From the NCBI RefSeq assembly GCF_001580915.1, contig NZ_LHZQ01000222.1, positions 124,001-188,000 of the forward strand: a stretch of DNA of 64,000 nucleotides. The letters are read 5' to 3'. The notes beneath the pieces are model-generated. The model saw nothing but the letters and a program-made list of their open reading frames with translations. It searched no databases and was not told the DNA's origin. Positions within the stretch are counted from its first letter, which is position 1; the number at the start of each line of letters is the position of its first letter. Below, piece by piece: positions 60,707-64,000 of this stretch. The DNA is from Acetobacter tropicalis (GTDB taxonomy: Bacteria; Pseudomonadota; Alphaproteobacteria; Acetobacterales; Acetobacteraceae). The translations under genes were made by a program, and so were the position numbers.

Positions 60707-61840
60707 ATGTCCGTGTGTCATCCAGCAGAAAAAATACCCAAGACGATCGTTTTCCGATCTGCTCTCAAGCGGTTGTATGGGGATGGCTTTGAGACACACG
60801 CACCAACCCAGGAAGACGCCTTTCCATCGGTCTTGTTGGAAAAACTGACACATCTGGGCGCTTTGTCCGCTGTTTTGCCTGTCAAAAATGGAGGACTGGG
60901 GCTGTATGAGTCCCCAGAGGGTATGCAGGGATTGATTGACCTGTTGCGTGTCACGGGGAGACTGAGTCTGTCTCTGGGGCGGTGTATCGAAGGACATATC
61001 AATGTGGTGCGGCTGGTGTCCCTGTATGGATCGGACAGGCAGCAGAAGGATCTGGCCGCTCTTGTAAAGCGGGGCGTGCTGGGGGGAATCTGGGTGACTG
61101 ATGGTGCCCAGCCGGTCACGCTGGAGCCAACCGCAACAGGGTATTGTCTGAACGGCGTAAAAGGGTTTTGCAGTGCGGTGCGTCAGGTCGGTGTGGCGTT
61201 GATAACCGCACGGACGGCACAGGATCAGGATGTCATGGTTCTGGTGCCTACCACTGAACCTGAACGCATTGGCAAAGGCCCAGGCCGATTGACCGGTATG
61301 GCGGCCAGCGGCACGGGCGCATACGATTTTACGGGAGTGGAGATTTCAGCCGATTCAATAATCGGTCAGGCTGGTGATTATTTAAGGCAGCCGGAATTTT
61401 CTGCTGGTGCGTGGCGTGGCTCTGCCGTTGCGTTGGGCGGTATGGATGCGCTGGTTGATCTGATGCGTCAGGAGCTTCGGGCACGCGGGCGGGCAGAAAA
61501 CCCGCATCAACAGCGGCGTATTGGCGAGGCCCTTATTCTGCGGGAGACAGCAAGCCAGTGGGTGCATCGAGCTGCCAAAGCGGTTTACGGTGTGCATGTG
61601 GCACCCGAGGAATGCGCCGCCATAGTCAATCTGGCCCGCATTGCGGTTGAGCAGGCAGGAGTGCAGCTCCTTACTCTGGTGCAGCAGGCGCTAGGGCTTT
61701 CGGCTTTTATTCGGGGCAAGCAGGTTGAGCAGACACTGCGTGATCTGGCCACCTATCTGCGCCAACCTGCCCCCGATGAAACACTGACAGAAGCCGCAGC
61801 CTGGTTTGTGGAGCGTGACTGGCCGGAAGAGACATTATGA
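60707..61840 (+). CDS. Acyl-CoA/acyl-ACP dehydrogenase-like flavoprotein
   Basis: About 377 residues with the acyl-CoA dehydrogenase fold: an N-terminal helical part (TIVFRSALKRLYGDGF, LEKLTHLGALSAVLPVKNGG). A middle beta domain follows (GGIWVTDGAQPVTLEPTATG, LNGVKGFCSAVRQVGVALIT). The C-terminal helices end in RGKQVEQTLRDLATYLRQ and PAPDETL. The active-site Glu expected before the RDL motif is replaced by Gly, so normal alpha-beta dehydrogenation is uncertain. GGGGAG lies ten bases before the chosen ATG. Its stop overlaps the PIG-L gene. It is probably part of a glycoconjugate pathway. Confidence 0.8.
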   Translation: MSVCHPAEKIPKTIVFRSALKRLYGDGFETHAPTQEDAFPSVLLEKLTHLGALSAVLPVKNGGLGLYESPEGMQGLIDLLRVTGRLSLSLGRCIEGHINVVRLVSLYGSDRQQKDLAALVKRGVLGGIWVTDGAQPVTLEPTATGYCLNGVKGFCSAVRQVGVALITARTAQDQDVMVLVPTTEPERIGKGPGRLTGMAASGTGAYDFTGVEISADSIIGQAGDYLRQPEFSAGAWRGSAVALGGMDALVDLMRQELRARGRAENPHQQRRIGEALILRETASQWVHRAAKAVYGVHVAPEECAAIVNLARIAVEQAGVQLLTLVQQALGLSAFIRGKQVEQTLRDLATYLRQPAPDETLTEAAAWFVERDWPEETL

Positions 61841-62568
61841 AAAGCAGTGATCTGACTGCAGAATTTTTTCGCCTGCCTATAAGGACTCTGGACGAAATAG
61901 CACCGGGCACAACGTTGATTCTGGCACCTCATCCCGATGATGAAAGCCTGGGGTGCGGTGGATTTATTGCCGAAGCCGTCGCCCAGGGGCGGCCACCCGT
62001 GGTGGTGATTGTTTCAGATGGATCAGGTTCTCATCCAGCCTCACAGGAATGGCCTGCCGTGCGCCTTGTGGAGCAAAGAGAGAAAGAAGCCCGTAATGCA
62101 GTAAGAATTTTGGGCCTTCCCCCTGACCGTCTGCATTTTCTGGGGCTGCGGGATACAGCGGTGCCCACAGAAGGGGAGGCGTTTAGCGCCGCTGTAGAGC
62201 GTGTGGCTGATCTTGCTCTTGATTATGATTGCTCAACGCTTGTGGTGCCATGGCGGCACGATCCTCATTGTGATCATGAAGCAGTATGGCTGATGGGTAA
62301 GGTTTTAAAGGCTCTTTTGCCCCATGTGCGTCTGCTGTCTTATCCCGTATGGGGCCTGACCTTGCCGCCTGATGTTATTCTGGACCAGCCTTTTCCAGCA
62401 GGGTGGCGCCTGAACATAGAGCCGCATCTGCCCACGAAGCGAGAGGCCGTAAAGGCGCATGAAAGCCAGAGAGGGCTGGTGATAGAGGATGATCCGGACG
62501 GATTTATCATGCCGGAAGAGTTGTTGGAAAAAATCATCCAAAAATATGAGATCTATATTTTATCATGA
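61837..62568 (+). CDS. PIG-L (LmbE-like) family deacetylase
   Basis: A 243-residue zinc-dependent N-deacetylase. The metal motif PHPDDE is at 31-36 and the second His pair lies in HDPHCDHEAV near 147. VVIVSDGSGSHPAS follows the first strand. Family members remove N-acetyl groups from N-acetylglucosaminyl lipids or thiols and from antibiotic precursors. It overlaps both neighbours by four bases, so it is co-translated with the dehydrogenase-like and methyltransferase genes. Bifunctional PIG-L/methyltransferase fusions are known elsewhere, which supports a functional link. Confidence 0.9.
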   Translation: MKSSDLTAEFFRLPIRTLDEIAPGTTLILAPHPDDESLGCGGFIAEAVAQGRPPVVVIVSDGSGSHPASQEWPAVRLVEQREKEARNAVRILGLPPDRLHFLGLRDTAVPTEGEAFSAAVERVADLALDYDCSTLVVPWRHDPHCDHEAVWLMGKVLKALLPHVRLLSYPVWGLTLPPDVILDQPFPAGWRLNIEPHLPTKREAVKAHESQRGLVIEDDPDGFIMPEELLEKIIQKYEIYILS

Positions 62569-63161
62569 GCAAAAAAACATGGTCTCCTGATATTTTTGAC
62601 TCGTTATTCCAGAAAAATCCTGACCCATGGGATTTTGAAAAAAGCCTCTATGAACAGGAAAAACTTGCCCGATTATTATCTTGCCTGCCACAGGAGCCTA
62701 TCAACTTTGCGGTTGAACTTGGGTGTGCTGTGGGGGTGGGAACAAAGGCGCTTGCGGCCCGTTGCACGCATGTTCTGGCGGTAGATGGTTCCTCCACAGC
62801 TTTGGCGCTGGCCCGTGACAGATGCTCCCACTTAAAAAATGTCTCTTTTCTGGAAGCCTTTTTACCTGAGGGGTATCCAAAATCTGCCGTTCTTGGCTGT
62901 GATGTGATCGTGATATCAGAAGTCCTGTATTTCATGGCGCAGAACGATATCAAAAAACTTGTTGATTATATCATGGAGACTCTGCCCCCTTCTGCTACTG
63001 TGGTGCTGGTTAACTGGACAGGAGAGACAGATACACCTTGCACCGGGGATGACGCAGCAGACTGTTTTATTCAGGCCTGTCATCCGTATCAGTGGCTGCC
63101 GGTTCATGCGGAACGCGGTGAGACTTACCGGCTGGATTGCCTTCGTTCTGTGGTGACATAA
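62565..63161 (+). CDS. SAM-dependent methyltransferase, NodS-like
   Basis: A 198-residue class I methyltransferase. The opening DSLFQKNPDPWDFEKSLYEQ is the NodS-family hallmark. The SAM loop ELGCAVGVGT is at 51-60, with VLAVDGSSTALALARDR and VIVISEVLYFM as motifs II and IV. NodS N-methylates a deacetylated glucosamine of Nod factors, after NodB deacetylation. Here the preceding gene is a deacetylase, giving an analogous order. Base composition is a little lower in GC than upstream. Its 3' end overlaps the convergent glycosyltransferase by 95 bases. Confidence 0.87.
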   Translation: MSKKTWSPDIFDSLFQKNPDPWDFEKSLYEQEKLARLLSCLPQEPINFAVELGCAVGVGTKALAARCTHVLAVDGSSTALALARDRCSHLKNVSFLEAFLPEGYPKSAVLGCDVIVISEVLYFMAQNDIKKLVDYIMETLPPSATVVLVNWTGETDTPCTGDDAADCFIQACHPYQWLPVHAERGETYRLDCLRSVVT

Positions 63162-64000
63162 AAAATTTGCAGGCGTCTTTCTGAAGAAGAAAATCAATAA
63201 CGCGCTGGGCTCTACGATGATGCAGGTGTAAATCCGCACGGTTGACCCGCGTAGATGAATCTGACGACTTTAACGAAATATCATTTCTATCAGAGTATTT
63301 TTTCTTTTTTCTGAGGCGTAGCATGCAACGGGAGACAGGTTCGAGTGCGTCATCCAGATAATCATCTTGCTGGACAATGCGGCGGGAAATTGTATCGGCC
63401 ATGCCACCCCGCGCACGCCCAACCAAGCGGGCAGAAACATAGACTTTGACTTCTGGTGCATGGCGCACGGGAAGGCCTGCTTCATGCAAGGCAGCGTAAA
63501 AAGCGCGATCTTCACTCAAAGGTTCAGGAGGAATGCCCCCCACCTGCTGCCATGCTTCTCGCGTTACAGCAATACTGGCGCCGGACCGTTCGCTATGGCG
63601 GGGCCATGGATCATAAGGCGTGGGTGCCAGTAGGGCTTTTATGTGCTCCAGTAAGGCTGCGTAGGCTTGTTCTTTTTCGTCATCTTTATGTAGATGTAAA
63701 GGGATTTTCTTGAATTCTGACGGAAGCAGAAGCGCGCGCCCGAATACAGCGGCAACATTGTAACGGATAAAGGCCCCAAGGGTCTGTGTCATCCAGTCTG
63801 GCGCAACTTCTGCATCTGCATCGGTTGTGAAAAGAAGGGCGTCGGATGGTGCGTAATGAGCGGCATGGACCATGGCATCATGCCTGGCGCGGCCTGCATG
63901 GGCCTGATCCGGGGAATAGGAAACACAAACGCTTTCTACCTCAAAAGGCAATGTATCCTGCAAGGAGCGCACCTGATGCCGGGTGTCATCTTGCGTATTG
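63067..64000 (-). CDS. Family 2 glycosyltransferase, C-terminal part
   Basis: The gene enters from the right edge; its frame remains open to the last base, so 310 or so C-terminal residues are seen and the start is outside. The metal-binding DxD lies in LFTTDADAEVAPDWM. GASIAVTREAWQQVGGIPP and LSEDRAFYAALHEAG (the catalytic ED motif) are typical GT2 elements. A strongly basic Arg/Lys tail follows. It converges on the deacetylase/methyltransferase operon and overlaps the methyltransferase gene. The acceptor is unknown, but context suggests a shared glycan pathway. Confidence 0.87.
   Translation of the reverse strand, partial: NTQDDTRHQVRSLQDTLPFEVESVCVSYSPDQAHAGRARHDAMVHAAHYAPSDALLFTTDADAEVAPDWMTQTLGAFIRYNVAAVFGRALLLPSEFKKIPLHLHKDDEKEQAYAALLEHIKALLAPTPYDPWPRHSERSGASIAVTREAWQQVGGIPPEPLSEDRAFYAALHEAGLPVRHAPEVKVYVSARLVGRARGGMADTISRRIVQQDDYLDDALEPVSRCMLRLRKKKKYSDRNDISLKSSDSSTRVNRADLHLHHRRAQRVIDFLLQKDACKFFMSPQNEGNPAGKSHRVPHEPAATDTDDRPE

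Follow-up and report, generated by a model that had tools for sequence, protein, structure and literature searches.

A widely shared four-gene cassette in Acetobacter tropicalis with a possible role in amino-sugar glycoside modification

In the bacillithiol and mycothiol pathway a glycosyltransferase (GT) acts first and the PIG-L deacetylase BshB or MshB second, and among the flavoenzymes with the acyl-CoA dehydrogenase (ACAD) fold KijD3 and DnmZ are sugar N-oxygenases acting on amino sugars. A 64,000-nucleotide stretch of Acetobacter tropicalis DNA (contig NZ_LHZQ01000222.1, positions 124,001 to 188,000; the whole stretch is the window, and positions are counted within it) carries a cassette of four adjoining genes for an ACAD-like protein, a PIG-L/LmbE-family de-N-acetylase, a NodS-like S-adenosylmethionine (SAM) methyltransferase (MT) and a family 2 glycosyltransferase (GT2). 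Like the bacillithiol/mycothiol front end, which works on a small GlcNAc glycoside, it pairs a GT with a PIG-L protein, and BshB is among the nearest solved relatives of the latter; unlike that front end, it has a GT2 rather than a GT4 enzyme, includes an MT and a flavoenzyme, lacks a cysteine ligase, and its PIG-L protein stays below the BshB and MshB equivalog cut-offs. It resembles the NodB-NodS step in combining a deacetylase, a NodS-family methyltransferase and a GT2 enzyme, but has PIG-L in place of CE4, an added ACAD-like protein and no NodA match in the cassette. With the ACAD-fold flavin monooxygenases (DszC/TdsC, MsuC and SfnB as well as KijD3 and DnmZ) the first protein shares the fold and its nearest sequence matches, but their LHDP is LRQ here and the window cassette is without a flavin reductase. 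Our best reading is that the cassette is a mobile biosynthetic module whose product would be a de-N-acetylated, N-methylated and flavoenzyme-modified amino-sugar glycoside linked to stress; it is a real, widely shared cassette, and it represents a variation on amino-sugar modification, not an entirely new type of system.

The ACAD-like gene comes first (60707..61840, + strand, 377 aa; an open reading frame call, ACAD-fold flavoenzyme-like), followed on the same strand by the PIG-L gene (61837..62568, 243 aa) and the MT gene (62565..63161, 198 aa). The chain of four-base overlaps described in the initial annotation can be read from the sequence, as both junctions are ATGA: the ACAD-like stop and the PIG-L start share 61837..61840, and the PIG-L stop and the MT start share 62565..62568 (both +). 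The GT2-like gene does converge on these three from the - strand (63067..64000 and on to about 64191 outside the window; 374 aa; L002 11070-12191), its start being a chosen ATG on the contig beyond the window, at the equivalent of 64191. It ends inside the MT gene, a detail absent from that annotation, with a tail-to-tail coding overlap of 95 bp (63067..63161), and a comparable overlap is seen in L018, the Acetobacter senegalensis locus. Comparison of all four genes with three relatives gave dN/dS values of 0.08-0.16 in 10 of 12 cases, the other two being saturated; for GT2 against its L018 relative, identity was 87% and dN/dS 0.08. Together with a gene order kept far outside the genus, these low values confirm that the four-gene unit is real and above chance.

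The proposed link between the four genes was also borne out by synteny beyond close relatives, the set being found across several phyla. ACAD-like, PIG-L and NodS-like MT genes, in part with GT2, recur in Alpha-, Beta- and Gammaproteobacteria, Deinococcota, Cyanobacteria and Actinomycetota; ACAD-like and MT genes, mostly with PIG-L too, were seen in Deinococcus, Nostoc, Kitasatospora, Rubrobacter, a Solirubrobacterales bacterium and the three proteobacterial classes. The order ACAD, PIG-L, MT is found with a GT gene adjoining on the opposite strand in Komagataeibacter, Deinococcus NW-56, Nostoc and Bradyrhizobium, and on the same strand in Sulfitobacter, Novosphingobium, Acinetobacter and Comamonas. 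We scanned the best 80 of 527 ACAD-like matches in the genome-contig set for partners within 6 kb, some of the contigs being short, and found PIG-L, MT and GT at 53 loci, MT and GT at 6, MT alone at 12 and none at 9, with MT thus present at 71 of the 80. For the 39 Pseudomonadota loci the corresponding counts were 29 with all three partners, 3 with PIG-L and MT, 3 with MT, 1 with PIG-L, 1 with MT and GT, and 2 with none, so that 36 of 39 have MT inside the 6-kb range; L209 and L212, with no partner nearby, are retained in these counts, and GT scores close to the threshold were obtained for L158 (54 bits) and L159 (58 bits). The partner-scan profiles were built partly from the scanned loci, and the first profiles gave a like picture. 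No ACAD-like match was obtained in any of 40 control stretches (described below).

The cassette is also found on plasmids, with an ACAD-like match in 46 plasmid records and a methyltransferase match in 73. Among 20 regions hand-picked for spread, 18 of which were annotated, the four roles stand side by side in 11 of the 18 annotated ones; L190 has all four, but its PIG-L gene is 3 kb away on the opposite strand and scores below 50 bits. Within the genus itself a family-level ACAD-like gene is present in 11 of 37 genomes, the source genome included (E <1e-100), and each of the 11 short same-genus loci (L091-L101) has PIG-L and MT. One of these, L093, has an in-frame TAG in its ACAD-like frame (G026:C6:113380-114492), and the cassette of that one genome may be decaying. 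We found no earlier description of the cassette among the papers listed for an open-access library, in keeping with its having been called an undescribed system.

Association of the three families holds across whole genomes. In 299 Pseudomonadota genomes (cut-offs E ≤1e-25 for ACAD-like, 1e-22 for PIG-L and 1e-22 for MT; scoring covered the 6 to 10 best candidates of each genome, and absence is not proof) we found ACAD-like genes in 21, PIG-L in 29 and MT in 31. PIG-L was present in 20 of the 21 ACAD-like genomes (Fisher ~3e-23), the exception, G313, having a weak adjacent match, and MT likewise in 20 of the 21 (Fisher ~2e-22; exception G335). Three genomes with no adjacent PIG-L (G087, G209 and G196) have a family-level PIG-L elsewhere. 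As for the 11 further MT genomes, eight carry the MT in open frames of 753-1218 residues (fusions), and G152 and G283 carry all the cassette genes, their ACAD-like scores falling slightly short of the cut-off. Distance matrices of the three families correlate at r 0.92-0.94 over 99 loci (0/500 permutations as high) and at r 0.73-0.81 over 37 divergent loci (0/1000 as high), with shared genome descent contributing to these correlations.

The description of the first gene as a dehydrogenase did not survive closer comparison. The protein has the overall acyl-CoA dehydrogenase fold; judged by its residues, it is not a plausible acyl-CoA dehydrogenase, because the catalytic Glu is absent and a subfamily signature of its own (EGH / W / LRQ) is present. 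There are two positions at which we take Glu to serve as the dehydrogenase base, the EGT site and the site before Arg used in IVD: at the first, an EG lies nearby in 1 of 123 ACAD-like homologues (those with PIG-L and/or MT in the locus), and at the second none of the 22 distinct cassette rows of the alignment has a Glu. The signature residues are in turn strongly conserved, E95-G96-H97 (60989..60997, +) with H97 in 121 of the 123 and gaps in two, and L351-R352-Q353 (61757..61765, +) with Q353 in 121 and R352 in 119. In the alignment LRQ occupies the site of ..EGT in dehydrogenases and of ..LHDP in monooxygenase-like proteins. The window protein falls short of the Pfam cut-offs for all three ACAD domains (N, 19.4/22.4; M, 18/33.3; C, 17.1/22.9 bits). 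Its best sequence matches are the flavin monooxygenases TdsC/DszC/MsuC, and its closest named relative found is from A. senegalensis (80% identity). At the same time, it does not reach the DszC and SfnB NCBIfam equivalog cut-offs (26.9 vs 850 and 23.5 vs 430.9 bits), and the C-terminal LHDP motif of that class, in which we assume the His to have a role, was not found, LRQ standing instead.

Several relatives of this protein are unusual in form or surroundings. Deinococcus ACAD-like proteins of 747-787 residues have a long N-terminal region (L009:8543-10882, L267:6711-9074 and L270:6744-8987), for which Pfam gives no domain above threshold. Inspected by eye, the roughly 400 extra N-terminal residues of the D. 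radiodurans protein resemble a glycoside hydrolase barrel, with GH53 sub-threshold in Pfam; in Deinococcus sp. AJ005 a similarly long protein, whose extra part is unnamed by Pfam, adjoins an annotated family 1 glycosylhydrolase. In Rubrobacter a pyridine-nucleotide-disulphide-type flavin adenine dinucleotide oxidoreductase, a possible electron donor for the flavoenzyme, is encoded between MT and GT2 (L192:9564-10766).

The other three proteins pass the Pfam cut-offs of their families. PIG-L scores 87.1 bits against a Pfam cut-off of 28.2 (PF02585), and its nearest solved relatives are TT1542, diacetylchitobiose deacetylase and BshB. Its APHPDDE motif (residues 30-36; 61924..61944, +), which we take to bind zinc, aligns with that of the solved deacetylases; H32, D34, D35 and E36 are invariant in 8/8 sequences, as are H144, D146 and H147 of the second zinc-site motif, HCDH (residues 144-147; 62266..62277, +). 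The BshB1 and BshB2 NCBIfam equivalog cut-offs are not reached (47.9 vs 182.5 and 48.7 vs 195.25 bits). The MT passes the Pfam NodS cut-off (PF05401, 48.9 vs 24 bits) and lies far under that of the NodS equivalog (NF041650, 62.1 vs 300 bits). A profile of eight MT relatives aligns to NodS 3ofj, the DPW region included, matching 3ofj/3ofk at 99.5 bits and, as its closest solved relative, 4isc at 148 bits, which the PDB list calls 'Methyltransferase' with no function named. Full-length GT2 exceeds the PF00535 cut-off (45.8 vs 23.3 bits; the in-window piece alone gives 22.2) and has a DAD at residues 124-126 (window 63814-63822). At two loci that have trehalose genes, the cassette is followed by another PIG-L gene (L150:11245-12120 and L152:6023-6793, - strand).

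Swaps and fusions offer another view of what these proteins may do together. In Rubrobacter a CE4 polysaccharide deacetylase gene (PF01522, 92 bits), a family that we take to be that of NodB, stands directly before the ACAD-like and MT genes, in a stretch where we found no PIG-L. In three alphaproteobacterial genomes Pfam places GT2, NodS and CE4 in one chain of 1003, 1035 or 1131 residues (L255:6373-9381; L256:6950-10054, - strand; L263:6963-10355, - strand; possibly also L257, L264 and L266), and one genome has a GT2-PIG-L chain. Because of this CE4 swap and these GT2-NodS-CE4 and GT2-PIG-L fusions, we read the cassette as probably combining deacetylation, methylation and glycosyl transfer; the swaps and fusions, with the long N-terminal regions in Deinococcus, point to carbohydrate work. 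The analogy to NodB-NodS logic drawn in the initial annotation thus stands for the set of enzymes, with N-methylation as a putative step. The PIG-L/methyltransferase fusions that it cited were not seen in the loci examined, no search having been aimed at them. The GT2-NodS-CE4 chain corresponds to part of the cassette condensed into a single protein.

The surroundings of the cassette add a context that the initial annotation did not have, namely trehalose and catalase genes. For this, homologue queries taken from annotated or read loci were run against the 39 Pseudomonadota loci (13-19.5 kb) and 40 control stretches of 19.5 kb each from 23 of the same genomes, hand-placed at round coordinates and not random. 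TreY or OtsA was found near 14 of the 39 loci and in none of the controls (P 1.2e-5). A point against this linkage is that a single family supplies 22 of the 39 loci, and it was therefore recounted by genus, read by hand, with 10/22 genera against 0/13 (P 0.005). Separate queries gave TreY 10 vs 0, GlgX 9 vs 0, LigD 8 vs 2, GT4 4 vs 0, PA2169 3 vs 0, DUF421 3 vs 0 and DUF72 1 vs 0; transglutaminase, ferritin-like, Gfo/Idh, TopoIB and CE4 queries had no match in the 39 loci. In L147, L156 and L210 the gene immediately upstream on the same strand is OtsA, and in eight of the 39 it is GlgX. In Comamonas endophytica the cassette is nested between otsA and otsB (otsA, ACAD, PIG-L, MT, GT, otsB), and in Acinetobacter haemolyticus it is flanked by catalase and, at its opposite end, by otsA-otsB. 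An annotated catalase, manganese catalase included, is present in 8 of the 18 annotated plasmid regions, a count made with no control set and including L189, which has MT and GT and no ACAD-like gene. That the cassette is linked with two trehalose routes unrelated to each other suggests a connection with trehalose, or with the stress inducing it, and not with one pathway intermediate. In L260, a PIG-L gene stands beside GlgX-TreY-MalQ-TreZ homologues, with no ACAD-like or MT match in the stretch.

We put forward, at about even confidence, that the four genes make an amino-sugar glycoside, either a small glycoside or an oligosaccharide, used under stress. GT2, elsewhere aided by further GT2/GT4 enzymes, would attach or extend an N-acetyl-amino sugar; the PIG-L zinc enzyme would remove the N-acetyl group; the NodS-like enzyme would methylate the freed amine with SAM; and the ACAD-fold protein would use flavin to oxidise the sugar or its amine. 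Here the substrate, the order of steps, methylation on N rather than O and the reaction of the flavoenzyme are what we infer, and the product might protect against osmotic, desiccation or oxidative stress. A wider version is tentative and, in our judgement, rather doubtful: a horizontally spread cross-phylum pathway to a de-N-acetylated, N-methylated, flavoenzyme-oxidised (perhaps N-oxygenated) amino-sugar glycoside, on or beside trehalose, with EGH/W/LRQ marking a new ACAD-fold catalytic subfamily and the product serving as a counterpart of bacillithiol/mycothiol in stress physiology. If this is true, acetic acid bacteria, Acinetobacter, Comamonas, Deinococcus and Nostoc have an unrecorded stress compound in common; a family annotated 'acyl-CoA dehydrogenase' performs different chemistry; NodB/NodS-type amino-sugar chemistry exists outside symbiosis; and three to four genes, often plasmid-borne, give a defined genetic handle for finding the compound.

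Several observations weigh against a stress-linked amino-sugar pathway. At nine of the best 80 loci no partner gene lies within 6 kb, and at 18 an MT is present but PIG-L is not; the D. proteolyticus region is shown without an MT, and Methylobacterium FF17 has the ACAD-like gene only. Matches to NodS-like profiles also include phosphoethanolamine and other methyltransferases. For the flavoenzyme, monooxygenases score little higher than dehydrogenases (87.8 vs 76.6 bits) and the fold comparison is tied, and the Deinococcus relatives L009 and L267 exceed the Pfam ACAD cut-offs for some domains. As for stress, 25 of the 39 loci have no trehalose gene within reach, neither KatE (3/39 vs 0/40, P 0.12) nor OtsA (4 vs 0, P 0.055) reaches significance by itself, and Ku is found at 8 loci vs 0 controls, but seven of the eight belong to one genus. 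An EcfG-type promoter motif upstream of the ACAD-like gene was found in 0 of 95 loci, nearly all alphaproteobacterial, with about 0.5 expected. The window flanks contain no stress genes, and no trehalose gene was found near the window or in nine alphaproteobacterial loci (L140-L146, L158 and L159), so a stress role for these is proposed by analogy.

The same data can be read in other ways. The GTs might build a surface or extracellular polysaccharide whose amino sugars PIG-L, MT and flavoenzyme then modify, and the four GTs in all at some loci (Sphingobium, Novosphingobium and Paracoccus) and the further GT with UDP-galactopyranose mutase at one locus would fit this; we consider it unlikely, given that the annotations of the 18 annotated regions include no Wzx/Wzy-type flippase or polymerase, that major facilitator superfamily transporters, although seen in several (L004, L006, L007, L188 and L267), were not enriched with either query used (0 vs 1 and 0 vs 0, loci vs controls), and that some solved PIG-L relatives act on small soluble glycosides. 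Trehalose itself could be the acceptor, glycosylated or otherwise modified into a protectant, as the linkage to both OtsAB and TreYZ-GlgX, OtsA or GlgX directly upstream in 3 and 8 of the 39 loci, and the otsA-otsB nesting in Comamonas would allow; this seems to us quite unlikely, as the window and the nine loci just mentioned are without trehalose genes and the presence of Ku, LigD and catalase nearby could reflect common regulation as readily as a common substrate. Shared regulation could even be the whole explanation, with generic stress genes (catalase, Ku, LigD, trehalose) gathered together and no single pathway behind them, but translational coupling, co-occurrence even where unlinked, matching distance matrices and fusions argue for one pathway and make that improbable. 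Least probable is a lipo-chitooligosaccharide (Nod-factor-like) signal: a NodS-like MT, a deacetylase and a GT2 are there, as are the CE4 of Rubrobacter and the GT2-NodS-CE4 fusions, but there is no NodA-type or NodC equivalog match among the six window proteins scanned (the rest of the genome was not searched), and the MT scores far below the NodS equivalog cut-off.

The cassette in the window lies among genes of other kinds, an oligopeptide transporter and isocitrate dehydrogenase (icd) upstream and, from open reading frames read by eye, an aminotransferase, glnB and glnA downstream.

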